A DNA stretch of 64,000 nt from Stieleria neptunia (GTDB lineage: Bacteria; Planctomycetota; Planctomycetia; Pirellulales; Pirellulaceae). Positions 27,991-58,917 of this stretch are shown here, one piece after another; the stretch's first letter is position 1, and each line of letters starts with the position of its first letter. The translations under genes were made by a program, and so were the position numbers. The notes below the pieces were generated by a model. The model searched no databases. It was given only the letters and a program-made list of their open reading frames with translations, and was not told the DNA's origin. The stretch is from contig NZ_CP037423.1 of the NCBI RefSeq assembly GCF_007754155.1, positions 8,862,938 through 8,926,937 on the forward strand, in the 5' to 3' direction.

Positions 27991-28195
27991 GTTAGCGGAA
28001 CGGCGCGAGCGGGCTGTCGGTTTTGTGAGCCGCGACGCGTAAGCGGCCGGGCACTGCGACGAAAGCCCGAGGCCTTACGGCCAGCGGCTCACTATTGACT
28101 CAGCAGATCCCGACTGAATCGACAGCCCGCGAGCCGTCCGGTCGCGTTTTAAAAATCACCGTCAATGACCGGAGGGCTCGCGCCCTACCGCTAAC
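27991..28195. repeat. TTAGCGG-terminated stem-loop element, long copy 1
   Basis: 205 bp with inverted termini GTTAGCGGAACGGCGCGAGC at the left and GCTCGCGCCCTACCGCTAAC at the right. Inside lie a second pair of arms (GAGCGGGCTGTCG, 28007-28019; CGACAGCCCGC, 28120-28130) around a ~100 bp core (28020-28119) that itself begins TTTTGTGAGCCGCG and ends CAGCAGATCCCGACTGAAT. Related copies are 58726-58917 (core inverted) and 52819-52891 (core missing). No transposase within it; MITE-like or REP-like. It occupies the upstream part of the 593-bp gap before gntR. Confidence 0.85.
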
Positions 28196-28240
28196 AAAAA
28201 ACACCGCACGTGACGTCAACGTCGATGGCATTGGGCGCCA

Positions 28241-28320
28241 GTCTTGCCCCCATCGTCTTGCCCCCATCGTCTTGCCCCCATCGTCTTGCCCCCATCATCC
28301 TGCCCCGAATCATTCTGCCA
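28241..28320. repeat. Tandem array of a 14-15 bp unit (TCGTCTTGCCCCCA), about 6 copies
   Basis: Units begin at about 28241, 28253, 28267, 28281, 28295 and 28310. The last is joined by GAA and runs into CATTCTGCCATCCCTC, the same exit as the 22257-22412 array. The array ends ~40 bp before the TTGACA of the gntR promoter. The unit differs from the first array mainly by GTCTTG for GTTCTG. Confidence 0.9.
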
Positions 28321-28358
28321 TCCCTCTCCTGCTCGCCTCCGAAGCGCCACACCAACCC

Positions 28359-28399
28359 TTGACACCGACGCCGCCCCTTGTATCATTGCATTAATACAA
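28359..28399 (+). promoter_or_regulatory. Promoter and overlapping palindromic operator of the gntR-ABC operon
   Basis: TTGACA at 28359-28364 and TATCAT at 28381-28386, separated by 16 bp, make a good sigma-70-type promoter 24 bp before ATG 28410. The inverted repeat TTGTAT (28378-28383) and ATACAA (28394-28399) overlaps the -10 box, with ATTGCATT in between. YtrA-type GntR regulators usually repress their own operon through such a palindrome, so this is the likely autoregulatory operator. Confidence 0.7.
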
Positions 28400-28409
28400 A
28401 GGTGCAATC

Positions 28410-28802
28410 ATGCTGATCCAAATCCAATCCGGCAGCCAGCCGATCTACCAGCAGATCGTCGAACAGATTCGCTTTCGGATCCTCTCTTCGCAGCTCAAGG
28501 CCGGTGACGAACTGCCGACGATCCGTGGGCTTGCCGAATCACTGAAGGTCAACCCGAACACCATCGCCCGCGCCTACCGCGAGCTGGAACATGAAGGGCT
28601 GGTCGAAAAGCGACGCACGACCGGGACCTTCGTCGCAGAAACCTCGGGAACACTCAGCCGCACACGCCGTCGGCAAATCCTCACCCCCGAAATCGACAAA
28701 CTGCTCGTGCTCGCCAGCCATCTGGGTGCCGCCCCGGCCGAACTGGATGAATTGATCGCATCCCGCCAGCAAGCCCTTCAACGAAAGGAACAACGCCCAT
28801 GA
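28410..28802 (+). CDS. GntR-family transcriptional regulator, YtrA-like
   Basis: 130 residues. N-terminal winged helix-turn-helix: SGSQPIYQQIVEQIRFRILS, then KAGDELPTIRGLAESLKVNPNTIARAYRELEHEGLVEKRRTTGTF, a textbook GntR reading head. The C-terminal part (residues ~85-130) is a short helical tail, not a ligand-binding domain, which places it in the YtrA subgroup that controls ABC transporters. It overlaps the ATPase gene by four bases (ATGA). Its promoter carries a matching palindrome. Confidence 0.93.
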   Translation: MLIQIQSGSQPIYQQIVEQIRFRILSSQLKAGDELPTIRGLAESLKVNPNTIARAYRELEHEGLVEKRRTTGTFVAETSGTLSRTRRRQILTPEIDKLLVLASHLGAAPAELDELIASRQQALQRKEQRP

Positions 28803-29752
28803 CTTCCGCCGACGATTTTGCCGTACGCATCGAGTCACTCTCGCGGGCCTTTCGCGGAACGCAGGCACTGATCGATGTCAGCTTGCAGATCCCGCGCGGG
28901 TCCGTCTTCGGGCTCGTCGGTCTCAACGGGGCAGGCAAGACGACACTGATCCAACATGTGATCGGTTCCTTGAAAGCGTTGCACGGAAGCGTCAACGTGC
29001 TCGGCCAGGATCCGACGGTCCACCCGGAAAAGCTGCTCGCTCGGATCGGCTACATGACCGAAGAGGACTCGCTGCCGAAATGGATGCGAATCAGCGACCT
29101 GACCAGTTTCTGCCGAACGGTCTATCCGACTTGGTCGGACTCGTATGCGCGCGAATTGTGCGACATGTTCGGTCTATCGACCACCGCCAAACTCAAGTCG
29201 CTTTCCAAAGGTGGCCGTGCCCGCGTGGCGCTGTTGGCGGCGATCGCGCACCGACCGGAACTGCTGATCTTGGACGAACCCAGCAGCGGTTTGGATCCGA
29301 TCGCGCGGGCCGACATTCTGGAAGCGATCATTCGCACCGTGGCCGACGAAGGCCGCACGGTGTTGTTTTCCAGCCACCTGCTCGAAGAGATCGATCGGGT
29401 CTGCGATCACATCGCGTTGATCCATGATGGCGTCCTGTTGGAATCGATTCCGGCGGCGACCTTGCCCGAACGGTACACCGAGTGTTTCTATCGCACGGAG
29501 ACACCATCGTCGCGTCCGCCCGAGATCCCGGGCTCGTTCGGCGGCACGGGCGACGCGTCGGAATGGTCCGTGTTGATGGACTCCGAAAATGAAGCGTCGG
29601 CATCGACGACCACCTCGATCGAATCTCACGGATCGCGTTGGGAATTGGTGCGTCAAGAACCGGCGACGGTTCACCGTTGGTTCGCCGGTCGCGTGCGCCG
29701 GCCCTCGGCGGCAGCAGCGTCGACGCAAGCGGAGGGCATTCAACATGTCTGA
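28799..29752 (+). CDS. ABC transporter ATP-binding protein
   Basis: 317 residues. Walker A is GLNGAGKTT (residues ~42-50), the Q-loop region YMTEEDSLPKWM, the signature a variant LSKGGRARVALLAA (LSKGG for LSGGQ), Walker B LLILDEPSSGLDP and the H-loop SSHLLEEIDRV. After residue ~225 is a ~90-residue extension rich in Ser/Thr/Pro, longer than usual for YtrB-type ATPases. It is sandwiched between gntR and the membrane subunit with start-stop overlaps on both sides, so it is the energising subunit of that exporter. Confidence 0.93.
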   Translation: MTSADDFAVRIESLSRAFRGTQALIDVSLQIPRGSVFGLVGLNGAGKTTLIQHVIGSLKALHGSVNVLGQDPTVHPEKLLARIGYMTEEDSLPKWMRISDLTSFCRTVYPTWSDSYARELCDMFGLSTTAKLKSLSKGGRARVALLAAIAHRPELLILDEPSSGLDPIARADILEAIIRTVADEGRTVLFSSHLLEEIDRVCDHIALIHDGVLLESIPAATLPERYTECFYRTETPSSRPPEIPGSFGGTGDASEWSVLMDSENEASASTTTSIESHGSRWELVRQEPATVHRWFAGRVRRPSAAAASTQAEGIQHV

Positions 29753-31451
29753 AATCATGGCACTGACCAGGTTGTCGATCGCGCGCTGCAGGACGGTGCT
29801 GACTATCGCGATCGTCTACATGCTTGTGATCCACCTCGGCACTGTCCTCTACAGCCTCAGCGAGGCCGGGGGCACGGCGACCGGCCAGCGCGCCGCCGTT
29901 TCGATCGTCGTGATGTTCTCGCTTCCGCTGCTCGGGATCACCTTCGCCTTGTTCGACTTCAGCGACCAAGGCGACATCGGTGGCGGCGCGACGGGATACC
30001 TGCCTTGGTTATTACGGATGCCGGTCCGGACCTGGAAACTCGCCGCCGTCCCGCTGGGTCTGAAAACACTGTGGACGCTCGCTGTTTGCGGCGCGATTGC
30101 ATTGACGGCCCGAGTCGTCGGAATCCCGCTGGAACGTTGGTTCATTCCTGCGGTGGGGATTGCGACGCTGTATGTTCTGGCCTGTCTGGTCACTTGGCAA
30201 CCGTTTCGCTGGACCTACACACGTCTTTCGCTGATCGGAATCCTGTTCATCCCCGCCTACGCGTGGCTGATCGCATCGGTTTCACTCGCGTTCGCCAACG
30301 AACGCTCCGACATGCCGTCGGATCCAACCTCGATCACCGCCGCTTGGATCATCGGACTCTCGACCTACGCGGCGCTGACATTGCTCGCGCTGCGCGCCGT
30401 GCGATTGGCACGTTGCCAAGTCGCCGGACGAATCAGTGAGTCGCGCGGGTGGATGGCGTCTGCGGAAACCGCATCGCCTGCCGTGGCCGCGGCCGCATCA
30501 TCGGCGACACCACCGAAGCACCCCGCCAAGATCTCACCGATCGCCGCACTGCTGCGATTTGAAGCGGTCAAACTCGCCGAGTTCGGGGCAAAGATCGTCG
30601 CCGCCAGTTGGTTGCTGATCGTGCTGTTCTTCTCCCTTTTCAGCCAGACCGGAACCGACACCTTTGTCTTCCTGGTGGTCGTGTTTCTGTTTCCAGGGAT
30701 CTTCTTGAACGAATGGAAACTGTCGGGGCTGCACGCGAACTTTCTGCCGCACACGCTCGCGATGGCGCCGATCCGGACGACGACGATTGTCTGGACGCAC
30801 CAGATGATCACCACGGCGATCTGGTTTGCATCGCTGCTGGGGGTTCCGATCGTGATGCTGATCTGGCACACCAGCGGCGCCAGTGCACCGATGATTGACG
30901 CTTGGCAGCGCGTGATCGGATCGCAATTCGACGCTCCCGACGCCTTCGCGCGACTCGCCGGGATTTCCGTCCTTGTCGCGACGTTGCTGGTCATCCGCCA
31001 AACGACGTGGAACGTTGCAGCGAGTTCAACGGATGAGAAACGATTCGTGTACTGGATGATCGCCGCGAAATTTACCGTCGCCTTCGCCGCGTTCAGCTGG
31101 TTCTTGTTCCAGTTCTTGCAGTTTCCCGATTGGGAAGCCTGGACGCGGTGGGCGTGGCAGTGCATCGCCCAACTGCCAAGGTTGCTACCCTGGTTGGCAG
31201 CGACCAAAACGCTCCTGGTCGTCTTCGCGACCGTGCTGCTCAATCGCTCCGGTCTGGCCGAACGGCGAACCGTCGTCGGACTGCTCGTCGGCTATCTCGC
31301 CTGCACGTTCTTTGTCGCAGGAATCGCCTGGCGATGGATGCCCAGTGATCACGTCGCTCTGTGGCACTGCGTGACGGCGACTGCGGTGTTGATGCCGTAT
31401 AGCCGGATCGTGTTGGCGCCTCTCTGTTTGGCGCATAACCGGCACGCCTAA
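29745..31451 (+). CDS. ABC transporter membrane subunit
   Basis: 568 residues; ATG 29745 overlaps the end of the ATPase gene by eight bases. Two sets of about six hydrophobic segments, for example VLTIAIVYMLVIHLGTVLYSL, AAVSIVVMFSLPLLGITFAL, VAASWLLIVLFFSLFSQ and VFLVVVFLFPGIFL, are split by a charged/Ala-rich loop at residues ~235-270. It has no nucleotide-binding domain. This layout suits a YtrC/D-like or ABC-2-like permease that pairs with the upstream ATPase. Substrate unknown; regulation by the YtrA-like protein suggests a response to cell-envelope stress or antibiotics. Confidence 0.85.
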   Translation: MSEIMALTRLSIARCRTVLTIAIVYMLVIHLGTVLYSLSEAGGTATGQRAAVSIVVMFSLPLLGITFALFDFSDQGDIGGGATGYLPWLLRMPVRTWKLAAVPLGLKTLWTLAVCGAIALTARVVGIPLERWFIPAVGIATLYVLACLVTWQPFRWTYTRLSLIGILFIPAYAWLIASVSLAFANERSDMPSDPTSITAAWIIGLSTYAALTLLALRAVRLARCQVAGRISESRGWMASAETASPAVAAAASSATPPKHPAKISPIAALLRFEAVKLAEFGAKIVAASWLLIVLFFSLFSQTGTDTFVFLVVVFLFPGIFLNEWKLSGLHANFLPHTLAMAPIRTTTIVWTHQMITTAIWFASLLGVPIVMLIWHTSGASAPMIDAWQRVIGSQFDAPDAFARLAGISVLVATLLVIRQTTWNVAASSTDEKRFVYWMIAAKFTVAFAAFSWFLFQFLQFPDWEAWTRWAWQCIAQLPRLLPWLAATKTLLVVFATVLLNRSGLAERRTVVGLLVGYLACTFFVAGIAWRWMPSDHVALWHCVTATAVLMPYSRIVLAPLCLAHNRHA

Positions 31452-31477
31452 CCGCGTCGGGCATGCTGTGCATGCCA

Positions 31478-31585
31478 GTACGACGTCCTTTCTAGGTCGT
31501 CGTCGGGAGTCCAGCGGACGACGGCCCGGAAGGGCCATCGTACTCGAAAAGCCGATCGTCTTAAGCTGGACGGTCTCTCAAGGCT
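31478..31585. repeat. Dispersed ~110 bp repeat, copy 3
   Basis: Starts GTACGACGTCCTTTC, contains GGTCGTCG and GACGACGGCCCGGAAGGGCC, then ATCGTACTCGAAAAGCCG, and ends AGCTGGACGGTCTCTCAAGG. Same family as 10825 and 13720. It lies at the convergent junction between the ABC permease and the kinase operon. Confidence 0.82.
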
Positions 31586-31838
31586 AGACACCAACGGTCG
31601 CTCCGATTGCGGCGTCGTCTCCACCGATCGATGAATCGCAAAAATCTTCCGATTCAACCATCAGAGTCTCGATCTCGTCCAATAGATCAAACCGTCGAGC
31701 CGTCCAATCCATCGGCAGATCGACATCCCATCGCTTTTCAAGAGGAAGATAAAAACACATTTGGACTCCATCGATTGACGAACGAATTGCTGCCGATCCG
31801 CGTGCTGGAGAAACGTGCCCCCTCGACGTTCCGGACAC
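31584..31838 (-). CDS. Possible small hypothetical protein
   Basis: 84 residues from GTG 31838, or 58 residues from ATG 31760. The C-terminal part, MCFYLPLEKRWDVDLPMDWT followed by ARRFDLLDEIETLMVESEDF, has balanced composition and reads like protein, unlike the Arg-rich shadows nearby. It starts 7 bp after the kinase gene ends on the same strand, and its 3' end touches a dispersed repeat. It may be a small gene or a remnant. No family recognised. Confidence 0.35.
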   Translation of the reverse strand: MSGTSRGHVSPARGSAAIRSSIDGVQMCFYLPLEKRWDVDLPMDWTARRFDLLDEIETLMVESEDFCDSSIGGDDAAIGATVGV

Positions 31839-31844
31839 GCAATC

Positions 31845-34226
31845 CTATTCCTGCAACCCGCTCAGGTCCCAGACGCGGATGGTGCCGTCGCGGCCGCTGG
31901 TGGCGATTTGGTGGGCGACCGGATCCAGGGAAACGTTGTGCACGGCGGATTCGTGGCCGGACAGTGACGTCACCAGCTCGCCGCTGGCCAGGTCCCAAAT
32001 CCGGCACTTTCCGTCTTGGCTGGCGACGACGGCATGCGTTCCATCGCCGCAAAACGCGACGCTCCAGTTGTCACCGCAGCTGCCTTCCAGCTGACGTGTT
32101 TCCAGCCCCGTCGCCGTGTCCCAAATACGAATCGACTTGCCCCAACCGACGGTCGCCACTTGGCTTCCCGAGGGTGCAAACTTGACATTGTAGATCGGGC
32201 CTTCGTGACCGAGCATCGTCTGCCGCGTCTCCAGTGTTTCGGCGTCCCAAATCCGCACGATCTTGTCGCTGCCGACCGACGCGATCAAGCGTCCGTCGGG
32301 TGACCAATCGACACTGTAGATCGACCCCGGCTGGGTCACGCTGGCGAGCGGTCGCCCGGAATCGATGTCCCAGGTGTGGATCACGCCATCGTGATCGCCG
32401 GCGACGATCCGTCTGCCGTCGGGTGAAAAGGCGATCTTGCGGACGGCACTGTGGGCATCCCATTCCTGCAGCAATTCCAACGACTCGGAATCCCAGATTT
32501 TAACCATGCCGTCGTTGCCGCTGGTCGCGACGATGTCCTTGCTCGGGTGATACTGGATCATCCAAACGATGCCGCGATGGGCGTCAAAGCTTCGCAACAC
32601 CTTTTGCTGTTGGATATCCCACAACCGCACGCTGCCGTCTTCGATCGCGGCGACCACTTTTTGGCCCGTCGGATCGAAGTCCACCGCCCAAACCGTTCCC
32701 GGGTTTCCGCCCAGGACGACGGACGGAAACACCGGACCGGTATCAACTGGTGCGACCGCGGCCGGTTCGTCTCGCGTTGCCAGAAAAATCATCGCGGCAC
32801 ACAGACTGGTGATCCCGATCAGTCCGGCCGCCCAAGCGGCGCGGAGCGCGTTGCGGGAAACCAGTCGATGCGAACCGCTGCGTCGCAGTTTCTTCGACGT
32901 GCTGGCAACCGCCGGGACTTGCAACGGTGAAATTGGGCCATAACTGGTCACGATTTCGGCCAGGGTCTCGGCGACAAAGGCGGCCGACTCGGGGCGCCGC
33001 GCGGGGTTTTTGTCCATCAACGCCATCGTCAGTTCGGACAACGGCAAGGGGATTTTTGAATTCAGCTTGACCGGCGGCTTTGGCGTTTCGTCCATGATGC
33101 GTTTCATCACACCGACGATCGATGGGGCTTCAAAGGGCGACACGCCAGTCAGCATTTCGTAAAGCACCGCACCGAGCGAGAACAGGTCGCTCTTCTCGTC
33201 CGCGGTCGCCCCGGTGGCCTGTTCGGGTGACATGTACAGCGGCGTTCCGGTGACCATCCCGGTCTTGGTCAAGCGGACATCATCGGTCGCACGTGCCAAA
33301 CCGAAATCCGTCAACTTGACGCGATCGGTTCCCGATTCGATCAAGATGTTCGCCGGCTTGATGTCACGATGCACCATGTCGCGTCCGTGGGCGGCGGACA
33401 ATCCCGCAGCGATCTGCATCGCGATGCGAGCGGCCTCCGCCGGCGGCAACGGCTTCTCCTCTTGCAGTCGTTTCTCCAGCGTCACGCCTTCGATGTACTG
33501 CATCACCAGGAATGCGACTTCCCCTTGATCCTCGCGGGCGACTTGATGCATCGCGACGACGTGTTCGTGGGAAATCGCTGCGGCGGCGCGGCCTTCGCGA
33601 CAAAAACGCTGACGGGCCACGTCGTTCTTGGCGTACTCGGGATTGAGCACCTTGATCGCGACGTTGCGTTGCAAGTGCGTGTCGAAGGCTTCCAGCACGA
33701 TCCCCATGCCGCCTCGGCCGATCACCCGTGAAACTTCGAAGTGATGCAGGCGACCGATGTAGGCGGGGTCGTCGGACTTTTTGAGAAACGGCAACGTGAC
33801 CGGACTGGCCGCTTCGATCGTCGGCGTCATGTCTCTATCCGATGGCGTCGGGGTCTGATCCGATGGCGTCGGGGCCTGATCCGATCCGACATCCACACCC
33901 GGCGGCACCTGTGTGATGTTGGCATCGGCGTTCGGGGTATCCCGGCTCGGAAAGCTGCCCGAGACCGCGGCGACGGCCTTCCAATACGCCGAATCACTCG
34001 GCGGCAGCGCCCCGACCGCTCGGCCGACGAGATCCTCGATCGGCACGTCCTTCGCCGCGTCACCTTGCATGATCGAACGGCCAGATATCTCGACCGACTC
34101 GAGAACCGTTTGGCAATGCGTACAGCCCCCGATGTGCTCGGTCGCACCACTCGCTTCTGCCTCCGGCAACGAACCGCCCACCAACGCTTTCAATTGCGTC
34201 TTGGTCGGGCAAGCTGAGACTGTCAT
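31845..34226 (-). CDS. Membrane Ser/Thr protein kinase with N-terminal zinc-finger motif and C-terminal WD40 repeats
   Basis: 793 residues. Residues 31-38 (HIGGCTHC) fit the HxxxCxxC zinc-binding motif of anti-sigma factors. A Pro/Thr linker leads to a Hanks kinase: GRGGMG (170-175), Lys192, HRDIKPAN (286-293), DFG (307-309), GTPLYMSPEQ. One membrane span (~464-484) is followed by seven or so WD40 repeats (~500-793: SVRLWDIQQQ, MVKIWDSESL, TIRVWDLSG), probably a beta-propeller sensor. ATG 34226 overlaps the ECF sigma stop (ATGA) and has GAGGAAG upstream. Likely controls that sigma factor by binding, phosphorylation or both. Confidence 0.92.
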   Translation of the reverse strand: MTVSACPTKTQLKALVGGSLPEAEASGATEHIGGCTHCQTVLESVEISGRSIMQGDAAKDVPIEDLVGRAVGALPPSDSAYWKAVAAVSGSFPSRDTPNADANITQVPPGVDVGSDQAPTPSDQTPTPSDRDMTPTIEAASPVTLPFLKKSDDPAYIGRLHHFEVSRVIGRGGMGIVLEAFDTHLQRNVAIKVLNPEYAKNDVARQRFCREGRAAAAISHEHVVAMHQVAREDQGEVAFLVMQYIEGVTLEKRLQEEKPLPPAEAARIAMQIAAGLSAAHGRDMVHRDIKPANILIESGTDRVKLTDFGLARATDDVRLTKTGMVTGTPLYMSPEQATGATADEKSDLFSLGAVLYEMLTGVSPFEAPSIVGVMKRIMDETPKPPVKLNSKIPLPLSELTMALMDKNPARRPESAAFVAETLAEIVTSYGPISPLQVPAVASTSKKLRRSGSHRLVSRNALRAAWAAGLIGITSLCAAMIFLATRDEPAAVAPVDTGPVFPSVVLGGNPGTVWAVDFDPTGQKVVAAIEDGSVRLWDIQQQKVLRSFDAHRGIVWMIQYHPSKDIVATSGNDGMVKIWDSESLELLQEWDAHSAVRKIAFSPDGRRIVAGDHDGVIHTWDIDSGRPLASVTQPGSIYSVDWSPDGRLIASVGSDKIVRIWDAETLETRQTMLGHEGPIYNVKFAPSGSQVATVGWGKSIRIWDTATGLETRQLEGSCGDNWSVAFCGDGTHAVVASQDGKCRIWDLASGELVTSLSGHESAVHNVSLDPVAHQIATSGRDGTIRVWDLSGLQE

Positions 34227-34831
34227 TGCGCTTCCTCTTCTTGTTCCAGCCGCTGGATCTCGGCACGCAGCCGCGCGGTCACTCGACTTTTGGCGACGTA
34301 GATCGCGCCGGTGCTCATCGACAATTCCTTCGCCGCCTCGGCAGCCGTACGGCCTTCGACCGCCGTGATCCGAAAGGCAGACCAAGTTTTGGGATCCGAG
34401 TTTTCTTCGACGATTTTCATTGCGATCGCAGCAAGTGAACGAAGGTGTTCCAATTCCCACTGCTCGCTGAGTTCGTTTCGGTCGTCAGCAGCTTGGGACA
34501 ACAATTCCAATTGAGCCGTATCATTTCCCGAGGGTCCGGCTTTCTTTCGCTTTTCAAAATAGGTGTACAGCCGATTCCGGGTGATTGTGAACAACCACGA
34601 ACGGAAGCCGCCTTTTTCCTTGTCATACTCCAATCGCCCGATCGCCGAACCGACCCGTCGAAAGACGTCTTGCACGATGTCTGCGGCATCGGCGTCTTGC
34701 AGCCCCCGGCTGCGAACGAATCGGTAGAGCATCGGGCCATAGTCACGCAAAAAATCGCTCCATGCCTCGTGATCGTTGGCGTCGCGAAGCCTCAAAAGGA
34801 GCGTCGCTCGCGTCACAGGAGATTCGCTCAC
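34223..34831 (-). CDS. ECF-type RNA polymerase sigma factor
   Basis: 202 residues from GTG 34831 (VSESPVTRATLLLRLRD). Region 2: AWSDFLRDYGPMLYRFVRSR, GLQDADAADIVQDVFRRV, FRSWLFTITRNRLYTYFEKR. Region 4: VEGRTAAEAAKELSMSTGAIYVAKSRVTARLR, a helix-turn-helix for -35 recognition. GACAGGG precedes the GTG. It belongs to the planctomycete ECF groups found in operon with Ser/Thr kinases. The upstream open extension (to 34912) lacks homology and was excluded. Confidence 0.92.
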   Translation of the reverse strand: MSESPVTRATLLLRLRDANDHEAWSDFLRDYGPMLYRFVRSRGLQDADAADIVQDVFRRVGSAIGRLEYDKEKGGFRSWLFTITRNRLYTYFEKRKKAGPSGNDTAQLELLSQAADDRNELSEQWELEHLRSLAAIAMKIVEENSDPKTWSAFRITAVEGRTAAEAAKELSMSTGAIYVAKSRVTARLRAEIQRLEQEEEAQ

Positions 34832-35182
34832 CCTGTCTGTCTCAATTTTGAAGTTCGGTCCACTCGGCCACCGGCAGTGACGGCGCAAAAAACCAAGCGT
34901 GCGATCGTGCAAGACAGTATAGCGACCGAACCGAGACTGACAGTCGGCACGTTCCTCCGCTGGGACTACCTGACGGGGATCGCTCTCTTACAACGTCGAA
35001 ATCGGAATTCCCTGCTTTTGCGATTCTTCGCCTTCCTCCCGACCCGAACATCCCACGTCACCAGCCCCCCCGTTTAGAATTCGTTGCGGAAGCTCCCGCG
35101 GCAATTCGCGTCTTGCGGGGTCATCCGATTAGTTTCATAGCGTTTCGACGTCCTTTTCCCGCACTGCGATTGTTGCCCCCCC
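34832..35182. other. Divergent intergenic region
   Basis: 351 bp between the ECF sigma gene (-) and the GAF-HlyD gene (+). Presumably carries both promoters, one perhaps autoregulated by the ECF factor, but no clear consensus, repeat or RNA is visible. Confidence 0.4.
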
Positions 35183-37399: not shown

Positions 37400-37409
37400 C
37401 ACCGAAACG

Positions 37410-39656: not shown

Positions 39657-39731
39657 GACGCCGGCTTGGGAAAGGAGTGACCCGATTCGAAGGGGGCAGG
39701 CCGTGACGCGTCCCGTTGGCATTGACTCGGC

Positions 39732-42044: not shown

Positions 42045-42244
42045 CAAGTGAGCTCCGTCAACATGAGATTCCATGGGGAATAGATGCACGCCATCCACCA
42101 GATGGAGCGAACCGGCGGGCACCAAAAAGAAAGAGGCGGAAGTCTGCCACGCCGACGTTAAGATCAAATGGGGCTCGCGTGAATTCTCTCAGTAGCTTCG
42201 CGCGGCGACCGAGCCCGATTGTCCAAGGCTTCTCGGGCCTGCGG

Positions 42245-42323: not shown

Positions 42324-42349
42324 CACCTGTCGCTGTTTTGAAAGGCCGC

Positions 42350-45409: not shown

Positions 45410-45421
45410 TGATCGTTCATC

Positions 45422-46099: not shown

Positions 46100-46149
46100 G
46101 CGGGGCAGGGTGGAGCGGGGACGACTCGGGGTCAATGGGTAGGAAAAAC

Positions 46150-46447
46150 ACGCTACTGAGTTCGAGTATCGCTGTCATCGTACTCGGACTCAACATAGTG
46201 GTACTCGTACTGCTACTTGACCTCGTTGACGAAGCTCTGGGATCGAGTACGAGTACCCGCGAAACGCCTGAGTACGAGTACGATCAGTAACAGCTGGCAA
46301 ACCAGCTTGATTTCACGTCAAAGTGGCGCTGTTCAGCGAAGGATCGAACGGAAAAAAAGTGCGGATCCTGCGAGCGGGATAGGCTTCCAGCCTGTCATTC
46401 CAGCGTCGACAGGCTGGAAGCCTATCCCACTTATTTTCCGTGCGTTG
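46150..46447. repeat. Intergenic inverted repeats
   Basis: Two structures. GGTACTCGTAC (46200-46210) and GTACGAGTACC (46247-46257) form an 11-bp stem inside a GAGTACGAGTAC-rich stretch. A perfect 21-bp stem at 46376-46396 and 46408-46428 (arms GGGATAGGCTTCCAGCCTGT and complement, 11-nt loop) follows; a diverged copy lies at 58084-58137. No gene supported in the 348-bp gap 46100-46447. Confidence 0.8.
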
Positions 46448-46933
46448 CTAAGCAAGATACCGCTCGACCCCCGCCTGCGGATACCCGTCATAGAACCGTC
46501 GGATCCAGTGCCGCCCCGACCAGTGCTGCAGATGTTGCTCCCATCCCATTCGCTCCAAGAACCGGTCCGAGATCGATCCGTTGGAGACGTGGGCGACGAT
46601 CGCCGACGCGCCCCGCAATCGTGCGATTTCATGCAACACGTGGCAGGCACCGACGAAGGACCGGTATCCGGCACGGCGGCCACTGCGGACATAGTCCAGT
46701 GTCAAAAATCCCGGCATCCCCAACGGCTGGTGATAATCCAACCAACACAGATCGTCGTCGGGTCGCCCGTAACGACTCTGCCACCAGACCTGCGCCATCG
46801 AAACGCTGCCGCACAGCCAGCGTCGTTCGATCCGCACCAGCTTGCCCGCCTGCATGACGATCCGTCCACACCGCCAGCGGCGGATCAGGTCCGGTCGTTG
46901 CTGGGGGTTCGTGATCGAGCGGGCGAACATCAT
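46448..46933 (-). CDS. Hypothetical protein with GNAT-like C-terminus
   Basis: 161 residues. RIVMQAGKLVRIERRWLCG, LGMPGFLTLDYVRSG and FVGACHVLHEIARLRGASAIVAHVSNGSISDRFLERMGW follow the strand-helix order of an acetyltransferase ending. VSNGSISDRFLERMGWEQH is typical of the alpha4/beta7 part of GNAT proteins (ISDRFLERMGW). The acetyl-CoA loop is not clear. No signal peptide. Probably a conserved planctomycete protein; function unproven. Confidence 0.6.
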   Translation of the reverse strand: MMFARSITNPQQRPDLIRRWRCGRIVMQAGKLVRIERRWLCGSVSMAQVWWQSRYGRPDDDLCWLDYHQPLGMPGFLTLDYVRSGRRAGYRSFVGACHVLHEIARLRGASAIVAHVSNGSISDRFLERMGWEQHLQHWSGRHWIRRFYDGYPQAGVERYLA

Positions 46934-47108
46934 CGTGGCCGGCGAGAGGTGAGAAGGGGATGCGTGGCGTGACCAACTCTAGCTCGCCGAAATCGCCGTG
47001 TTCGCGTTTAATTCGCGCTCGTTCCATCTTCGAAGGGTCACACGGTGCAACATTTCCCCACTGTGTACTGGAAGGGTGTCGAAGTGTTCCCCAACCGACG
47101 GGCCGCCC

Positions 47109-51245: not shown

Positions 51246-51482
51246 AGGGGCTTCTCAATCGAGGTTTAGCGTGAGGAGGATGAAGCAAACCGCAGGGGTT
51301 CACACCGACGTGCTGCGGCGCTGACGCTGAGCCGGAAACGGCCCCATGGAAGGCGACGTCGGTAGCGGCCGACGCGGCCTCCAAGGCGATTTGATCTGAC
51401 TTCACCGAAGGATAAGGGTGGCAGTATAAACAAACCGAACGTTCCAAGCCGCAAAATCGGACGATTCAGCAGGTCCGTTTTC
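51246..51482. other. Intergenic region upstream of the ELWxxDGT gene
   Basis: 237 bp holding the promoter side of the surface-protein gene and, at 51466-51499, a 17-bp tandem duplication (TCAGCAGGTCCGTTTTC twice) that overlaps the stop of the TIGR03032 gene. No other feature visible. Confidence 0.55.
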
Positions 51483-52685
51483 TCAGCAGGTCCGTTTTCT
51501 TTGAACGCAATCGCCACTCGCTCCACCGACGATCGCATCAACTTGATCGCCACGCGGCACCACCCATACGGGCAACTGCTGATCCTCTCGTGGATAGGGA
51601 CCGCATACCACCGTTCGCCTGCTGCTTTGAATCACTTGCACATCAAACAGTTCCTCGACGCCGCTCTCGAACTCCAGAAACGCCAGACTCTGCCCCGACA
51701 CCCAGTCGATCACGACAATGCCACAGCGCATCGCGGCCCGATCCTGACAAATCGGCACCCCTCCGAAAACCGACGTTTCTCTCGCCCGGCTCATCCCCAC
51801 AAAGGCGTACCGGCCATGGAACGCCAACCCCCGTCCGTAGCCCGGATAGGACGCCACCTCCTCGGCCTGGCCGCTTTGCGGATCGACCGTGACCAGTTTT
51901 CCCCGACCACTATCCAGCATGAAAACCTTTCCGTCATGCAACCGCGGAGAATGGGGCATGCAGAAACCGCCCGCGACCACCTGCCCACTGGGCACATCGA
52001 TCAGCACCCCGCCGTCGGACTTGTGTTCGCGCCAGCCTCGCGCCGCATCACTTGTTCCCAACGCGCTGACATACTTGGGCCGTCCCGCTTCCATCGCCAT
52101 CCCGTTGAGATGACAACGGTCTTGTGGCGCCAATTCCGTGATGAACGGGGGCTGCCAGCGTGGAACAAAATTAAAGTCCTCGTGCAACGTCGACAGACAC
52201 GAAAACAACGTGTTCACGATCCACAATTGGCCATCGGCCCCCCACTGCATTTCATGCACATGGATGTTGCCCGTCACAAACGACTCTCGGGCCAGGTAAG
52301 CTCGGTCATAGGTCCCCGCGGGGTCGACTTGGCGTGCCAGCGATCCACCATCGCGAAGAAACCAAATCACGTTCGGCCCCCCGACTGCGATCGACGACGT
52401 CTTCACCCCGATCGCATCCGACGCCTGCCGTGGCGGTGCAATCCCCATCGCCTGTTGAAAATTCGAAAACCCCAAATGAAGTTGACCGTCGCAGGCACCG
52501 ACGCTGACCACTTTCCCCGCCGCATAGGTCGAAACCAATAACGAACAACCGAGGTGCTCAAGCAACGGAACAAATTTCGAACTGTGCCGAAAGTTGATCT
52601 CGCGCATCGCGGTGGGCCGCTCGGGTCCGCCCACCGCGGCATCGTCCGAGGCCGCTGCTGGTTGCTGCTGGTTGTCCATCGACAT
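51483..52685 (-). CDS. TIGR03032 family protein
   Basis: 400 residues. Matches the TIGR03032 beta-propeller-like family: FVPLLEHLGCSLLVSTYAAGK, GNIHVHEMQWGADGQLWIVN, TLFSCLSTLHEDFNFVPRWQPPF, DRCHLNGMAMEAGRPKYVSA, GFCMPHSPRLHDGKVFMLDSGRGKL and CGIVVIDWVSGQSLAFLEF. Members are of unknown function, often beside sulfotransferase or tetratricopeptide genes. The stop codon lies inside a 17-bp tandem duplication, which may have altered the last few residues (QRKRTC). Confidence 0.9.
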   Translation of the reverse strand: MSMDNQQQPAAASDDAAVGGPERPTAMREINFRHSSKFVPLLEHLGCSLLVSTYAAGKVVSVGACDGQLHLGFSNFQQAMGIAPPRQASDAIGVKTSSIAVGGPNVIWFLRDGGSLARQVDPAGTYDRAYLARESFVTGNIHVHEMQWGADGQLWIVNTLFSCLSTLHEDFNFVPRWQPPFITELAPQDRCHLNGMAMEAGRPKYVSALGTSDAARGWREHKSDGGVLIDVPSGQVVAGGFCMPHSPRLHDGKVFMLDSGRGKLVTVDPQSGQAEEVASYPGYGRGLAFHGRYAFVGMSRARETSVFGGVPICQDRAAMRCGIVVIDWVSGQSLAFLEFESGVEELFDVQVIQSSRRTVVCGPYPREDQQLPVWVVPRGDQVDAIVGGASGDCVQRKRTC

Positions 52686-52818
52686 CGTTGGGGTTGAACG
52701 GGAGCTTCGATCGGTGCGGCAACGCCCCCGAGCCGCGAGGTCGTTTGGGATTCAAAGCCACCCTCCCTCGCTGCCAGGTAACGCTGTGAAACGTATCTTC
52801 CCTGTGTTTCATGATGTT

Positions 52819-52891
52819 TTAGCGGTAGGGCGCAAGCCCTCCGGTTCCTCCTCGGTGCCAAAACACCGGAGGGCTCGCGCCCTACCGCTAA
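52819..52891. repeat. TTAGCGG-terminated stem-loop element, short copy
   Basis: Arms TTAGCGGTAGGGCGCAAGCC (extending to CTCCGGT, 52819-52845) and their complement (52865-52891), 27 bp with one mismatch, around a 19-nt loop. The termini equal those of the long elements at 27991 and 58726, so this is the family without its core. Lies in the 317-bp gap between the TIGR03032 and CRTAC1 genes. Confidence 0.9.
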
Positions 52892-53002
52892 CAAATGCAT
52901 CTCATCGGTTCAGCGTCGTCCGACCTTCACCGTGGCGGGAAACGCAGAATACGCGTCCCCCGCCTAGATCACAAGCATCCGTTCACAACCATCGACCGCA
53001 GC

Positions 53003-54892
53003 CTACGGGGTCACCGCCGATGCCGGTCGCTCGATCACGTGGCTTTGATCGACCGCCAACGGCTGCAGTTCCTGGCGCAGTCCGTCGGCCCACTGGACGA
53101 CGATGCGATCGACTCGATCGGCGGTACCCAGGCCGAACGTGAGCGGCAGCTCGACTTGCGAAAGATAGCTTCGCGTCGGCATCACTTGTTGACGGATGAC
53201 CTGATCGCCCACCGTCAGTTCGACCCACGAACCGATCGCGTCGCGATTGCAGTGCCGCCCGTCGCCTTTCAATCGCAAACGCAGCCAATGATGGCCGAGC
53301 TGTTGATCATTGCGCAACAAACGCGGACCGCGGCCGGTTGCTGTGATCAACAGATCCAAGTCGCCGTCCTGATCGATGTCGGCATACGCAGCGCCACGGC
53401 CAGGCATCGGTCGCAACAAATCCGCACCGACCTGCATCTCGTTCATCGCCAGAAACTCCGTCCCGTGCTGCGGCCCGGCGTTCCAGAACAACTGGGGCGG
53501 CTGTTCGTAATGCTGGCTCGGCTGCACGCGGTTGATGTCCTCTTCCAAGTGACCGTTGGCACAGAACAGGTCCGATCGACCATCTAGATCACAATCCAGA
53601 TACACCAAACCGAACGTCAACAATAAACGCGTGCTCGGGCCCAATCCGGTCGAGACGGCTTCGTCGTAAAACTGCATCCGCCCCAACTTGGTCACGTACA
53701 GCGCCGTCATCTCGTTGGAAAAGTTTCCGATGGCGACGGCGAGAGCTTTGCGTCCACGAAACGAAGCGACATCAATTCCCATTGCACCGCGGGCGTTGCC
53801 GCTGGAATCAAATGCGATTCCGGTGAGCGCCCCGACTTCGCTGAAATGGCCTTCACCGTCGTTGCTGAGCAACAGGTTTTGCACGGTATCGTTGGCGACG
53901 ATCACGTCCAACGTTCCGTTGGTGTCAAAGTCACAAAACGCCAGTCCCAGCGATTTGGACAACGGCACCCCGGTCGACTGATTCTGGATCTGAACCCCGG
54001 CCTGCTCGGACACATCGGTGAATGTGCCGTCACCGTCATTGCGGTACAGATAGGGATAGGTGCCTTCAAAATTCTGCGGACGCCCGTAGGCTCTGCCGCC
54101 TCCGACCAGTTGAAAATTCTGGGACTGATCGTACTCCCGGCTCCAGCCGACGTAGTTACAGACGAACAGATCCAGATCACCGTCGTTGTCGTAATCGAAC
54201 CAACCGGCGCTGGTGCTCCACCGATCCGCCTGGCCACCCACGCCAGCCGCTTCGGTGACGTCGTCAAACCGCCCGTCGCCGAGATTGCGAAACAGATGGT
54301 TCCGACCGATGCCGGTGATGAACACATCGACATGATCATCGTTGTCATAGTCCCCGACCGCGACACCCATTGCATAGTCAGACAGGTTTAACCCCGATGC
54401 TTCGCTGACATCAACGAATTGATCGCCGTCGTTGCGATACAGCATCGAGGTCTCGGTCCGCCCGCTCGGCGGATCCCAGGGCCAGTCTTTGCTGTTGATG
54501 AACAAGATGTCTTGATCGCCGTCGTTGTCGTAATCAAAGATCGCCGTGCCCCCGCCCATCGTCTCGGGCAATAGTTTGTCACCGACGGCGCCGTTGTTGT
54601 GAACAAACTCGATTCCGACCTGTACGGTGATGTCGGTGAAGGGCACCGTCGGCACCTGGACGTCGGGCATTTCGCGGATACTGACTGTCGCCAGCTCGGA
54701 TTCGCGTACCGGTGGTGCGGCCTCCGGCCGTGACAAATAAAACACGAGTGCCCCGCCGACGGCGACCAGTGCGACGAGGGCCAGCAACGACCACCGCAGC
54801 GCTCGGCCGATTTCGGCGTCGTCGCGGAGAACCTCCTCTTCCTCACCATCGACTGCTTTGGGATCAATCTCTACCGCCTGCGGATGTGACAT
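53003..54892 (-). CDS. CRTAC1/ASPIC-UnbV family FG-GAP repeat protein
   Basis: 629 residues from ATG 54892 with GGAGG upstream; its start overlaps the end of the cytochrome gene by 29 bases. One membrane anchor (residues ~34-55, WSLLALVALVAVGGALVFYL). Then FG-GAP/VCBS-type calcium-binding repeats: FDYDNDGDQDILFIN, GDYDNDDHVDVFITG, FDYDNDGDLDLFVCN, DIDQDGDLDLLITA. The last ~100 residues are the ASPIC/UnbV domain (NHWLRLRLKG-like HHWLRLRLKGDGRHCNRDAI, then DRIVVQWADGLRQELQPL). Probably periplasmic and functionally coupled to the multihaem protein, as in similar planctomycete gene pairs. Confidence 0.91.
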   Translation of the reverse strand: MSHPQAVEIDPKAVDGEEEEVLRDDAEIGRALRWSLLALVALVAVGGALVFYLSRPEAAPPVRESELATVSIREMPDVQVPTVPFTDITVQVGIEFVHNNGAVGDKLLPETMGGGTAIFDYDNDGDQDILFINSKDWPWDPPSGRTETSMLYRNDGDQFVDVSEASGLNLSDYAMGVAVGDYDNDDHVDVFITGIGRNHLFRNLGDGRFDDVTEAAGVGGQADRWSTSAGWFDYDNDGDLDLFVCNYVGWSREYDQSQNFQLVGGGRAYGRPQNFEGTYPYLYRNDGDGTFTDVSEQAGVQIQNQSTGVPLSKSLGLAFCDFDTNGTLDVIVANDTVQNLLLSNDGEGHFSEVGALTGIAFDSSGNARGAMGIDVASFRGRKALAVAIGNFSNEMTALYVTKLGRMQFYDEAVSTGLGPSTRLLLTFGLVYLDCDLDGRSDLFCANGHLEEDINRVQPSQHYEQPPQLFWNAGPQHGTEFLAMNEMQVGADLLRPMPGRGAAYADIDQDGDLDLLITATGRGPRLLRNDQQLGHHWLRLRLKGDGRHCNRDAIGSWVELTVGDQVIRQQVMPTRSYLSQVELPLTFGLGTADRVDRIVVQWADGLRQELQPLAVDQSHVIERPASAVTP

Positions 54893-57800
54893 CGGTGGCC
54901 TCCTTTTCTTCTTGACGGGTAATCGCTTTCGTTTCATCGGATTCGGGTTGGTTTAGATGGCGATCGAGCGAGTAGATCACGACCTTCTCGGCCGCGTGAT
55001 TCGCCGCGGGATACTTTTCGCGGGCCAGCCGGATGGCACGGCCCTGGGCATTGTCATCCGGCTTGTACCGAAGATGCAGTTCGCGGTGTAAGGTCGCGTT
55101 CTCCGTGCCCCCCACCGTCTCATACAACAGCTGCAAATTGTGGTGTGCCGTCACGTTTTCGGGATCGATTTGCAAGGTCGTTTTGAACCTTTCAATCGCT
55201 TCCTTGTAGTGATATAGAGCTGTCATTTTCGTGTCCCCCAACGCCTCATACAACTGCTGCAAATTGTAGAGTGCCGTCACGTTTTCGGGATCGACTTCCA
55301 GTATCTTCTCGAACTTTGCAATCCCTTCCCTATAGATGCGTTCGCTTTCCTCGACTGCTTCGCCTTCCCCCAGGGACGCACGGACACCCTCCTGGCGATC
55401 AAAAGTACGCCCCTGATCGAACAATGTTTGTCCCAACGTGTTGATGACTTCAATGTCCAAACTGAAATCAAATCCGCGACGTCGCATGTCCTCGGTGTTG
55501 TCTTCCAATACGCTCCGCAAGTTCTGCTCGGCTTCGACGAGTCGGCCTTGCTGCGAGTTGACCACACCGGACAACCAGGCCCACGTCCAACGTGGGAATC
55601 CCTCGGTGTCACTGTAGCTCTCGGCCCGGTTGAGCGCTTCGACGGCTTCGTCCAAACGCCCTTCCAAGTTCAGCACGCGGGCCAGGTTCATCGGGCCGTC
55701 ATAACGGTCCAGCTTTTCGACTTCGGTGAACGCCTCTTCGGCCTGACGCAATTCCGCTTTGCCTTTCAATAACAGACCGATGCCATAGTCGTTCCAGCGT
55801 TGCCAATCGGGGATGTCACGCGGTGCGTTTTCCACGTCCTGGTCGATCCCGTCGACCGGAAAGACGATCGAATCCACCGCCAGCGTGGTGATCGGCAGCT
55901 CGTTGGTGTACTCCTGGCCCGGCTGGTGGCCACGAATGATCCGACCGAACTGCTCATTCTTCTTCGCCACAAAGTCCATGTACCGTTGATCAAACTTTCG
56001 GTACTGCAGTTTCAACTCGACGTTGATCGGCGCGGTGACGTCATCTGGAATCGTCAGCCCATAGTGCACCGTCTGTCCCGCACCCGGCGGAATTTGATGG
56101 TTGTACAAGGGCGTGAAAATGTTCTGCGGATTTCGCCGATCGATGCGGTTGCCGTCTTTGTCCAACATGAACACGTTGACAAAGTGCGACCAGGGATCCA
56201 CTTCGTTGTAATTCTGTGGATTGATCGCTCCACTACGCCCGATCACTCGATCGCCGCTGGTCACCGTCACGTCCAGCCAGATCTCATTGGAATCCACCGT
56301 GCCCTGCGAGAAGAGGTGTCCCAGTTTTAAGGTTCGGATCACCGTTTCCAGCAAATAGGTTTCGCCCGGCTTCAACGCAGGCACTTCGGGACGCAACGGC
56401 GCCGTCAGTTTTCCGTCGATTTCCCCTTCCTCGCGGATCCCGAAAATGTCGACCCGCATCACGTCCTTCAAGTACTCTTGGTGCGCGACGATGATGTCGT
56501 CGCGATCGCGCAACCACGCGATCCCCGTATTGGCCGATGGGAACAGGTGATCGTGGACACTCAGCTCCGTCGCGTCATCAAACATCTTGGCACCAAAATC
56601 GTCCGAGGCGACCAACGGCATGTGACACTTGCTGCAATTGTCCACGGCTTTGGGCGGGTAATAAAAACTTCGCGCCCCGTGGCCGGAGACGCCGCTGAAG
56701 AGATAGGGATCGTAGTGGTTTTGGCCGCGCAAAAATTCCTTGTAGTGATTGAGCGCCTCGGGCAAGTGCACCTTGTGGCACGTCGAACAGAACTCAGCCG
56801 TCTTGTGGAACGGTTTTAGAAACGTCTTCTTGTGAAACGACGGCTTGGCTTTGACCAGCTGGTTGTTGATCCACTGCAACGCTGCATTGTCGCTATTGGC
56901 AAAGGGATAATGCAGCGGTTCCTCGATCGTGTAGTCCGCATTGCCACGCACGCTGTTGACATTCGTGATCGCGTGACAGGACGTGCAGGTGATCCCGGCG
57001 CTGGCGGTCTTGTGTTCCAACATGTCGAACTTCGGGTCGTCAAACGCGCCCGAGAAAAACGGCACCGGGTCGTGACATCCGGCGCACCACCTGGACGCCT
57101 GGACCGATCCGTCGCGTTCCAGCGACACCTCCCGCGTCTCACTGACACTGGCGAAATAGGGCGGGTTATTGAAGGAACTGAAACGGTGAACGCTGTCGCT
57201 CCAGTCCTTGTGAATATCGGCATGACACTTCAAACAATACTCATCATTCATCAACGCGTCGGCGGGAATGAAGTTGCCGCTGGCCGTCCGCGCCAACGAA
57301 GGTTCAAAGTACTGCGTTCCCGATTCCGGTCCGACGGCATTCCACTGTCGCGGGTCCTGCATTTGCAACACCACCATCGCCGCGATCGCGACACCGGCGA
57401 CACCGGCAAACGTCATTCCGATCCGCCATTTGATCCGTGGCCCGGCCAGCCGATGCAACCAGTACAGCCAAACGGCCGCCAACGGGCATGCCACGTGCAA
57501 CCAATACACGGTGTTGCGGGCGACGGGTTGCTTGAGATCGAACCCGCCGATCCGCACCAGCAACAGTCCCGTCGCGAGAATCAATAAGCTGGCGGCAAAC
57601 AAGGCATAGCCGATCCGCACCGCCCGTCGGTTGCGGCGGTTCTTGGTGTTCCACAGGTGCACGAACCCAAAAATCACCAGCGGCAAAATCAAGATCAGCC
57701 CCAGCACCAAATGGGCCAGGAACATGTATTGGTAATAGAAATCCTGGTAGGTTTCGTCGCGCAACCACTCCATCAACGTGACGATGGCCAGATAACCGGA

Positions 57801-57926
57801 GTTGGCGAACAGCAGAGCAACAAGAACAAAAATAAAATAAAGCAACTTCCGAAGACGTGGGCCGACGGCGCGGACGTACTTCTTGCGCGGCACCGCGGAG
57901 GCGGTGCCCGAAGCAACGGATGACAT
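54864..57926 (-). CDS. Membrane pentahaem cytochrome c-like protein with TPR domain
   Basis: 1020 residues. Four N-terminal membrane spans (residues ~27-200, including LRKLLYFIFVLVALLFANSGY and YMFLAHLVLGLILILPLVIFGF). Five CxxCH haem sites between ~228 and ~430: CLKCH, CAGCH, CTSCH, CSTCH, CSKCH. A central Ig-like/beta region (~480-690) and C-terminal TPRs (~700-960) follow, including a duplicated unit with the shared block DPENVTA. Likely electron transfer at the inner membrane, with TPRs as docking surface. ATG 57926. Its 3' end overlaps the CRTAC1 start, so the two are translated together. Confidence 0.9.
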   Translation of the reverse strand: MSSVASGTASAVPRKKYVRAVGPRLRKLLYFIFVLVALLFANSGYLAIVTLMEWLRDETYQDFYYQYMFLAHLVLGLILILPLVIFGFVHLWNTKNRRNRRAVRIGYALFAASLLILATGLLLVRIGGFDLKQPVARNTVYWLHVACPLAAVWLYWLHRLAGPRIKWRIGMTFAGVAGVAIAAMVVLQMQDPRQWNAVGPESGTQYFEPSLARTASGNFIPADALMNDEYCLKCHADIHKDWSDSVHRFSSFNNPPYFASVSETREVSLERDGSVQASRWCAGCHDPVPFFSGAFDDPKFDMLEHKTASAGITCTSCHAITNVNSVRGNADYTIEEPLHYPFANSDNAALQWINNQLVKAKPSFHKKTFLKPFHKTAEFCSTCHKVHLPEALNHYKEFLRGQNHYDPYLFSGVSGHGARSFYYPPKAVDNCSKCHMPLVASDDFGAKMFDDATELSVHDHLFPSANTGIAWLRDRDDIIVAHQEYLKDVMRVDIFGIREEGEIDGKLTAPLRPEVPALKPGETYLLETVIRTLKLGHLFSQGTVDSNEIWLDVTVTSGDRVIGRSGAINPQNYNEVDPWSHFVNVFMLDKDGNRIDRRNPQNIFTPLYNHQIPPGAGQTVHYGLTIPDDVTAPINVELKLQYRKFDQRYMDFVAKKNEQFGRIIRGHQPGQEYTNELPITTLAVDSIVFPVDGIDQDVENAPRDIPDWQRWNDYGIGLLLKGKAELRQAEEAFTEVEKLDRYDGPMNLARVLNLEGRLDEAVEALNRAESYSDTEGFPRWTWAWLSGVVNSQQGRLVEAEQNLRSVLEDNTEDMRRRGFDFSLDIEVINTLGQTLFDQGRTFDRQEGVRASLGEGEAVEESERIYREGIAKFEKILEVDPENVTALYNLQQLYEALGDTKMTALYHYKEAIERFKTTLQIDPENVTAHHNLQLLYETVGGTENATLHRELHLRYKPDDNAQGRAIRLAREKYPAANHAAEKVVIYSLDRHLNQPESDETKAITRQEEKEATDVTSAGGRD

Positions 57927-58083
57927 CGAATATTTCCTAGCGAGATTGATTGACTACAACACAGGGCGTCGATCCCCGCCGCGCGGGAATCATCGCGACC
58001 TGACCGAAACCGTTCACAGGCTTCGGTCCAACGTCACACCATCGATCGTCGCAATGGATCGCGCTGCGCGGGCGGGAGAACTT

Positions 58084-58137
58084 GGGATAGACTTCCAGCC
58101 TATCTGTTCAGCAGCGACAGGCTGGAATCCTATCCCA
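58084..58137. repeat. Hairpin repeat related to 46376-46428
   Basis: GGGATAGACTTCCAGCC at the left and GGCTGGAATCCTATCCC at the right, with mismatches, are a diverged copy of the perfect hairpin at 46376. It sits in the 278-bp gap (57927-58204) upstream of the cytochrome gene. Confidence 0.75.
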
Positions 58138-58204
58138 CTCTCCAACAGACCGACCGTCGGCAAAACAAGATGCCGGCGGTTTGACGTTAGCGACGACGAA
58201 CGAA

Positions 58205-58597
58205 CTAGGCCTGGGGAGGTCGCTCGATCGGGTGCGCGTGACCGCTAGGAAGGATCAAAGAATCGTCGCGACCAAACCGCACCGGGAACAATTCCGGCTG
58301 GGGGCGGTGATCCGACGGGCAAACCGCGTCGTGATGGTCACGTTGGACCTGGGTCGCCGGCGGTAACGGGGGCACACTCGGCCCAGAAGGTGACTGCCGA
58401 CACAACGGACCGTCACACGATCGCGGAGCCGAGGGTTCGTCGACAACGTCGCCACCCTGCTGTGACATCGCGTGCGGTGACATCGAAACATCATCCGGAT
58501 GGGCCAACCAATCGCCACAACTTGCATCGGCACGGCGCGACGTCAGCACGCTCGCCGTGAAGAGGACAAGAAGGAGTAGACAGAGATGACGCAACAT
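58205..58597 (-). CDS. Small exported hypothetical protein
   Basis: 130 residues from ATG 58597. Signal peptide MLRHLCLLLLVLFTASVLTS..ADA. The mature part is Pro/Ser/His-rich with four cysteines (SCGDWLAH, SCDGPLCRQ, AVCPSD) and FPVRFGRDDSL near the end. No family recognised. The clean signal peptide and cysteine pattern support a real secreted protein. Its role could relate to the neighbouring cytochrome pair, but nothing in the sequence shows this. Confidence 0.55.
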   Translation of the reverse strand: MLRHLCLLLLVLFTASVLTSRRADASCGDWLAHPDDVSMSPHAMSQQGGDVVDEPSAPRSCDGPLCRQSPSGPSVPPLPPATQVQRDHHDAVCPSDHRPQPELFPVRFGRDDSLILPSGHAHPIERPPQA

Positions 58598-58725
58598 TAG
58601 GCCCGGTTCAGTGTAGACGATCGACCCCTTAAGGCTATCGCGTGGCCATCCCGATGTCAACGAAATGTTCGCCGGAACGATGATCACTGCCCCCCCCAGA
58701 AAGGGCCGCGATGTGAAGCACCGTT

Positions 58726-58917
58726 GTAGCGGAACGGCGCGAGCGGGCTGTCGATTTAGTCGGGATCTGCTGAGTCAACGGTGAGCCGCTGGCCGTGAGG
58801 CCTCGGGCTGCGTCTGAGTGCCCGGCCGCTTACGCGTCGCGGCTCACAAAAACGACAGACCGCGAGCCGTCCGGTTTCAGCGTGTCAGCCTCGGAGGGCT
58901 CGCGCCGTGCCGCTAGC
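58726..58917. repeat. TTAGCGG-family stem-loop element, long copy 2 (core inverted)
   Basis: Outer arms GTAGCGGAACGGCGCGAGCG and the right-hand GGCTCGCGCCGTGCCGCTA keep the orientation of copy 1 (27991-28195), as do the inner arms GAGCGGGCTGTCG and GACCGCGAGCCGTCC. The ~100 bp core (58753-58852: begins ATTTAGTCGGGATCTGCTGA, ends GGCTCACAAAAAC) reads as the reverse complement of the copy 1 core. It fills most of the gap 58598-58954. Confidence 0.87.

Follow-up and report, generated by a model that had tools for sequence, protein, structure and literature searches.

Two long stem-loop repeats with mutually inverted cores lie at 27991–28195 (copy 1) and 58726–58917 (copy 2) of the 64,000-nucleotide stretch of Stieleria neptunia DNA analysed here (the window; positions 8,862,938 to 8,926,937 of NZ_CP037423.1, the single 10.98-Mb contig of this genome). 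Their core is very probably a separate miniature inverted-repeat transposable element (MITE) that has inserted, in either direction, at a preferred site of a host palindrome, GTTAGCGG...CCGCTAAC, which resembles repetitive extragenic palindromic (REP) sequences; the opposite orientations of the core would accordingly reflect independent insertions. The initial annotation of the window had described a dispersed MITE-like family with an invertible interior. The MITE-like character stands, with a nesting that this description overlooked: the MITE corresponds to the core alone, with the outer arms as target.

Both long copies display the common outer and inner arms originally described, and the third copy (52819–52891), described as lacking the core, is an uninterrupted host palindrome whose halves form the inverted repeat I6 (52814–52845 with 52865–52896, 91%). 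The core is reverse-complemented between the long copies, as claimed, over about 118 bp; the unit actually inverted is 28010–28129 versus 58744–58862, which the repeat search of the window returns as I1 (28064–28130 with 58743–58809, 94%) and I2 (28009–28061 with 58811–58863, 92%). In copy 1, the plus strand carries in succession (i) the left piece of the interrupted host arm, GTTAGCGGAACGGCGCGAG (27991–28009), which runs on without interruption into the remaining arm sequence in the orthologue of Stieleria sedimenti; (ii) a CGAG tetranucleotide ending this piece (28006–28009); (iii) the 120-bp MITE (28010–28129), with ends CGGGCTGTCG and CGACAGCCCG; (iv) a second CGAG (28130–28133); and (v) the remainder of the host palindrome (28134–28195), including the second arm ACCGGAGGGCTCGCGCCCTACCGCTAAC at 28168–28195, identified from repeat D15 and the S. 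sedimenti orthologue. The MITE contains an inner palindrome, GTGAGCCGC...GCGGCTCAC (28025–28092), which is the portion retained in more distant relatives, and a wider palindromic frame, GCCCAATGCCATCTAC ... GATGGCATTGGGC, encloses copy 1 beyond the coordinates first reported (27960–28236) and is retained in S. sedimenti. Copy 2 has the same layout, with the left arm piece TAGCGGAACGGCGCGAG (58727–58743, plus strand, located by sequence and the terminus-pattern search), CGAG at 58740–58743 and again at 58863–58866 (direct-repeat test), and the remainder of the palindrome at 58867–58917 (D15). Its 119-bp MITE (58744–58862), delimited by the motif and repeat searches and the direct-repeat test, occupies the same arm position on the minus strand.

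The hexanucleotide GCGAGC abuts the core at both sides, outside its GGGCTG start and outside its end; these two copies, absent from the initial annotation, are direct repeats and not inverted ones. The outer termini originally given hold in that the six perfect terminus matches coincide with the ends of all three copies, and fail at the start of copy 2, which reads GTAGCGG and not GTTAGCGG. The terminus pattern has seven matches in the window with at most two mismatches, versus 0.78 expected, and a 22-nt core motif occurs twice, on opposite strands, versus 0.00 expected from 100 shuffles. The presence of two cores in one window is unremarkable given the 204 matches of the core motif in the whole genome, split 110 to 94 between the two strands (the reversed pattern, used as a control, gave none). 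Tandem arrays of a 14-bp unit (ATCGTTCTGCCCCC / ATCGTCTTGCCCCC) are found at 22238–22412 and 28231–28333; the second adjoins copy 1, and this array is shared by the two related genomes described below.

Searches with copy 1, copy 2 and the core gave 601, 583 and 320 candidates at first look, respectively; 40 places were scored, and 45, 41 and 41 matches were listed. The copies analysed below come from best-hit searches, from the first 100 of the 204 motif places and from long stretches, and are therefore not a random sample. Besides S. neptunia, they were collected from two genomes of the same genus as the window, which we take to be S. sedimenti ICT_E10.1 and Rhodopirellula sp. SM50. After removal of hits shorter than 70 bp, hits lying 160 bp or less from a locus end and duplicate loci, the 176, 24 and 47 hits in S. 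neptunia, S. sedimenti and SM50 reduced to 142, 18 and 43 copies; the ends of 15, 1 and 4 of them, respectively, could not be placed. When lined up, the copies define a discrete unit bounded by CGGGCTGTCG and CGACAGCCCG, 119 or 120 bp long in 155 of the 183 located copies (93 and 62). The unit is well below some 300 bp, carries no transposase gene, and has inverted terminal motifs like CGGGCTGTCG and CGACAGCCCG (three mismatches at most) at both ends in 127 of the 142 S. neptunia copies.

The bases bordering the core read CGAG|core|CGAG in one orientation and CTCG|core|CTCG in the other, and such matching direct bases at both borders are the mark of a target-site duplication. Exact 4-bp direct repeats flank 83 of 127 S. 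neptunia copies (108 with at most one mismatch), versus 29.8 on average, and never more than 46, in 1000 shuffles of left against right flanks, and versus 2 when the flanks were compared in inverted form. Exact repeats are likewise found in 21 of 39 copies in SM50 and 13 of 17 in S. sedimenti. We set the duplication at 4 bp and rejected a 6-bp one because the insertion site in a second host class (H3, see below) and locus L324 permit only 4. Tandem MITE pairs a few bases apart occur at L086 (about 273329–273600 of the S. neptunia contig) and at L187 and L211 in SM50; they give the impression that the target duplication made by one copy had received another.

For the 142, 43 and 18 copies of S. 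neptunia, SM50 and S. sedimenti, we looked for orthologous loci, defined by unique flanks on both sides that map to a single place of another genome. The core is shared by two or three species at eight distinct two-flank loci (flank identity 77–96%), and the orientation is the same in all eight; it is also the same at a ninth common locus, shared by S. sedimenti and SM50 just upstream of the orthologue of copy 1, and at two loci compared through one long flank (L153/L106 and L179/L235). Thus, none of nine two-flank and none of two one-flank loci shows a flipped core. At the position of copy 1 itself, the palindrome with its wider frame and the neighbours on either side are all present in S. 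sedimenti, with CGAG in single copy, and the MITE alone is missing; copy 1 is therefore an insertion. In SM50 this place holds a degenerate core-like fragment without the host palindrome, and G004, another genome of the genus, has neither. Eight further two-flank loci differ by the presence or absence of the core, and they provide a second empty target (L048 versus L187) and a third one (L120 versus L199) in a repeat array of SM50, where GTCA occurs once in the unoccupied unit, and the filled unit reads GTCA...GTCA. Conserved orientation, the empty site in S. sedimenti, the direct repeats and the full-length insertion sequence described below leave the invertible interior unsupported, and the comparison of genomic copies and relatives gave the very outcome that the initial annotation had named as speaking against it, namely independent insertion.

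The host palindrome is an inverted pair present in high copy number, with 554 intact arms (one mismatch at most) in S. neptunia, 669 in G004, 648 in S. sedimenti, 885 in SM50 and none in G013. The MITE sits in one arm, at a fixed site in or next to the loop of a small arm hairpin, ACGGC-GCGA-GCCGT, and a few other sites are used too. Among the 127 S. neptunia copies, 48 and 39 lie, in the two orientations, in hosts of the window type (H1), 6 and 6 in hosts of type H3 (CAGCGGGACGCGTCA...), 1 in H2, 15 in half or hybrid arms and 12 in others; the H1 orientations number 13 and 6 of 53 in the subset drawn from core-motif places. Four sites in S. sedimenti and SM50 lie outside these palindromes and have exact repeats of their own (CCAG at L257, CTTG at L272 and L184, TCAA at L186). 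In G013, relatives of the MITE inspected by eye (L102, L108 and L112) have other ends, CAGCCTGTTG (L102 and L108) or CAGTCTGTTG, with repeats CTAG, CTAT and GTAG, and no host arm of the searched pattern is present, which we count in favour of insertion. We also considered whether hairpin loops are preferred in general. The H1 arm scores 4.65 stem pairs at the insertion site versus 2.21 at random positions (69 S. neptunia sites), whereas the H3 site scores 2.33 versus 2.24; among 14 half-arm and outside sites listed, three (L186, L180 and the tandem L085) fall in the top 5% of controls and 11 do not. Because H3 and most half-arm or outside sites score like controls, a general hairpin rule is unsupported and we rejected it. 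In G004, host arms are arranged in regular arrays of about 96 bp (contig C1, 1273606–1273921, 1282730–1283042 and 2256394–2256898), which suggests tandem growth of the host palindrome.

A full-length insertion sequence (IS) uses the same target. In seven same-genus genomes, a DUF772 search gave 39 matches in G004, two in S. neptunia and none in the other five. All 28 G004 loci fetched from these 39 matches contain a 1993-bp IS with ends CGGCCTGTCG(A/G)TTTAG, which differ by one base from CGGGCTGTCGATTTAG, the end of copy 2 in the window (about one mismatch in 16); the MITE hence has nearly the same ends as an autonomous IS from the same genus. Exact 4-bp repeats (CGAG, CAAG, CTCG, CTAG, CATG) flank 23 of the 28 ISs. 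By a strict test, 13 of them occupy the MITE's site in the palindrome in one orientation and 5 in the opposite one; the remaining 10 fail this test, and for several of these a host arm can be seen by eye at one border or at both. The transposase of one copy (L319) scores 328.9 bits against the NCBIfam model IS1182 (NF033551; cut-off 270), which places it in this family.

Several observations weigh against our reading. No exact 4-bp repeat flanks 44 of the 127 S. neptunia copies. At five of the eight presence/absence loci (L228, L226, L211, L199 and L243) the unoccupied side also lacks the palindrome, and at one (L187) it is altered; these six therefore show a mere difference between genomes, and real empty targets are limited to two of the eight, plus copy 1. 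The distances between cores correlate, if weakly, with those between host arms (r 0.18; 79 of 2000 permutations as high), so that composites of palindrome and core may have spread together to a limited extent. In addition, no parent-like IS was recovered from the S. neptunia genome: no pair of core ends (two mismatches at most, 0.7–3.5 kb apart) was detected around 29 DDE_Tnp_1 or DDE_Tnp_1_6 places (31 loci), and the DUF772 search found a different IS1182 element only, the searches covering these three transposase families.

Could the core nevertheless flip in place, by recombination between its inner arms or through a site-specific invertase? The inner arms are inverted repeats, both orientations are common in the main host class, and identical cores are found both ways round, at different loci. 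Orientation is not clustered on a tree of 86 S. neptunia H1 cores (one of 87 was removed for length, here and in the distance test), which we count for insertion: it changes 30 times, versus a mean of 28.1 with shuffled labels. Few branches are well supported, and the tree on its own would fit recurrent flipping and repeated insertion alike. The two are told apart by the orthologous loci, which contradict inversion where they were compared. Inversion in place also offers no reason for direct 4-bp repeats and leaves the empty sites, the insertions outside palindromes and the full-length IS at the same site unexplained, so that we regard it as very improbable. The absence of orientation clustering also speaks against the idea that the whole composite is mobile, one or a few founding core insertions in each orientation having been followed by copying. 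The weak core–host correlation just mentioned fits this idea, as do one SM50 locus with a palindrome and tandem cores where S. neptunia has neither and four other presence/absence loci lacking the palindrome on the unoccupied side. Cores are nonetheless found in several host classes (H1, H3 and half arms) and outside hosts, and a sister species has empty palindromes at loci that are filled elsewhere; we consider wholesale copying of the composite unlikely.

Mobilization of the core by a Y1 transposase of the REP-associated tyrosine transposase (RAYT) type, as thought for REP doublets forming hairpins (REPINs), would agree with the REP-like host and with the eight Y1_Tnp matches of the S. neptunia genome. 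In the flanks examined around these eight loci (about 1.5 kb on either side), however, there is no host arm, H3 or inner-core motif with up to two mismatches, and scattered imperfect end-like matches only. Inverted ends and 4-bp repeats suit a DDE enzyme; Y1 enzymes are not known to produce a target duplication. We hold a Y1 origin to be highly unlikely. Finally, the strong dyad symmetry could point to a family of structured RNA genes, an explanation to which we give hardly any credence: an Rfam scan of the whole window yielded nothing at gathering scores, and the copies behave like insertions. We therefore retain insertion of a MITE, in either direction, into a REP-like palindrome. Given a target usable in either direction, an inversion step is unnecessary.

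The other S. neptunia IS1182 element was considered as the MITE's partner and set aside as not the obvious one: its ends (GAGGCTGTGAATT) differ from those of the core at several positions. It exists in two near-identical copies (L275 and L276; 1676119–1677453 and 3301587–3302921 of the contig) and itself interrupts a host arm of the TTAGCGG type, the junction in L275 reading CCCTCC|GAGGCTG. In genomes G032 and G033, related ISs have CCG or CTCCG beside the same AGGCTGTGA end. Two ISs of other families in S. neptunia, L289 and L277, apparently lie in other repeats (one with flanks GTGGGATAGGCTTCC / CCATGACAGGCTGGA, the other in AAAAAGGGTCAGGAGC repeats). Palindromes may be common IS targets in this genome. 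The window contains two further repeat families. One dispersed palindrome (GGGATAGGCTTCCAGCCTGTC...) is present at 46372–46431 and 58083–58140 (repeats D9, I3 and I10), and a motif similar to it flanks the IS at L289. Another family, GTACGACGTCCT...GACGACGGCCCGGAAGGGCCATCGTAC, is present at 10826–10891, 13721–13786 and 31478–31543; a palindrome resembling it is found close to the Y1 transposase locus L098, and the family may be the REP of that enzyme.

Fixed-point insertion of ISs into REP sequences is already known. ISPsy8, ISPa11, ISPpu9/10, ISRm22 and ISRm19 are ISs that insert into REPs (Tobes and Pareja 2006, PMC1525189); in the passages that describe them, they resemble the present element by a fixed insertion point in a high-copy palindrome, at the symmetry axis in two cases, and by short direct repeats in most cases for which these are described. 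They differ in being full-length and, where numbered, in having 4 to 9 copies (PMC1525189), whereas we observe a 120-bp MITE in about 200 copies, with an IS1182-type relative and a planctomycete host. In the IS1182 family, the table row for ISPse1 reads 1653, 16/16, 4 (PMC3281130); if the 4 is the length of the direct repeat, as we take it to be, ISPse1 generates 4-bp repeats as here. IS1272, another member, also uses inverted repeats as target, and one hypothetical pathway proposed for it (pathway c), in which joining occurs at the loop, would duplicate the loop, which comes near to our pattern; as described there, though, IS1272 replaces the target palindrome without duplication (PMC5678879), whereas the palindrome persists in our case, with a 4-bp repeat. 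MITEPsy1 is similar as a 100-nt MITE with a 4-nt duplication and inverted ends near those of a full-length IS, and dissimilar in its six copies and its CTAG/YTAA target, no tie to REP palindromes being described in the portion of the report cited here (PMC3189936). The host palindrome resembles the inverted pair of REP units with hairpin arms of REPINs, as these are outlined in PMC3116915; unlike there, the Y1 flanks mentioned above revealed no Y1/RAYT gene linked to the palindrome, which serves as the target and is distinct from the inverted core. Among the titles and abstract openings surveyed in the IS1182, MITE, REP/palindrome and Stieleria literature, none describes the present element.

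Altogether, an IS1182-type transposase would place the 120-bp MITE within or beside the loop of the host-arm hairpin, with a 4-bp stagger and in either direction. From the similarity of their ends, this transposase is probably that of the G004 IS or of a very similar IS. Copy 2 presumably arose like copy 1, to which the orthologue comparison applies. More tentatively, it is possible that the transposase reads the REP-like hairpin and joins at its loop, thereby keeping the hairpin and duplicating the loop along the route sketched for IS1272, and that the palindromes throughout the genome have offered safe landing sites to a MITE with nearly the same ends, which attained about 200 copies although no matching IS was found in this genome. 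What looked like a DNA switch becomes a case of nested transposons with controls, and opposite core orientations in different repeat copies do not prove inversion where the same target can be entered both ways. A single target that has received many insertions, from the MITE as well as from a parent-like IS, in related genomes also constitutes a large natural data set for distinguishing whether IS1182 transposases read sequence or hairpin shape.

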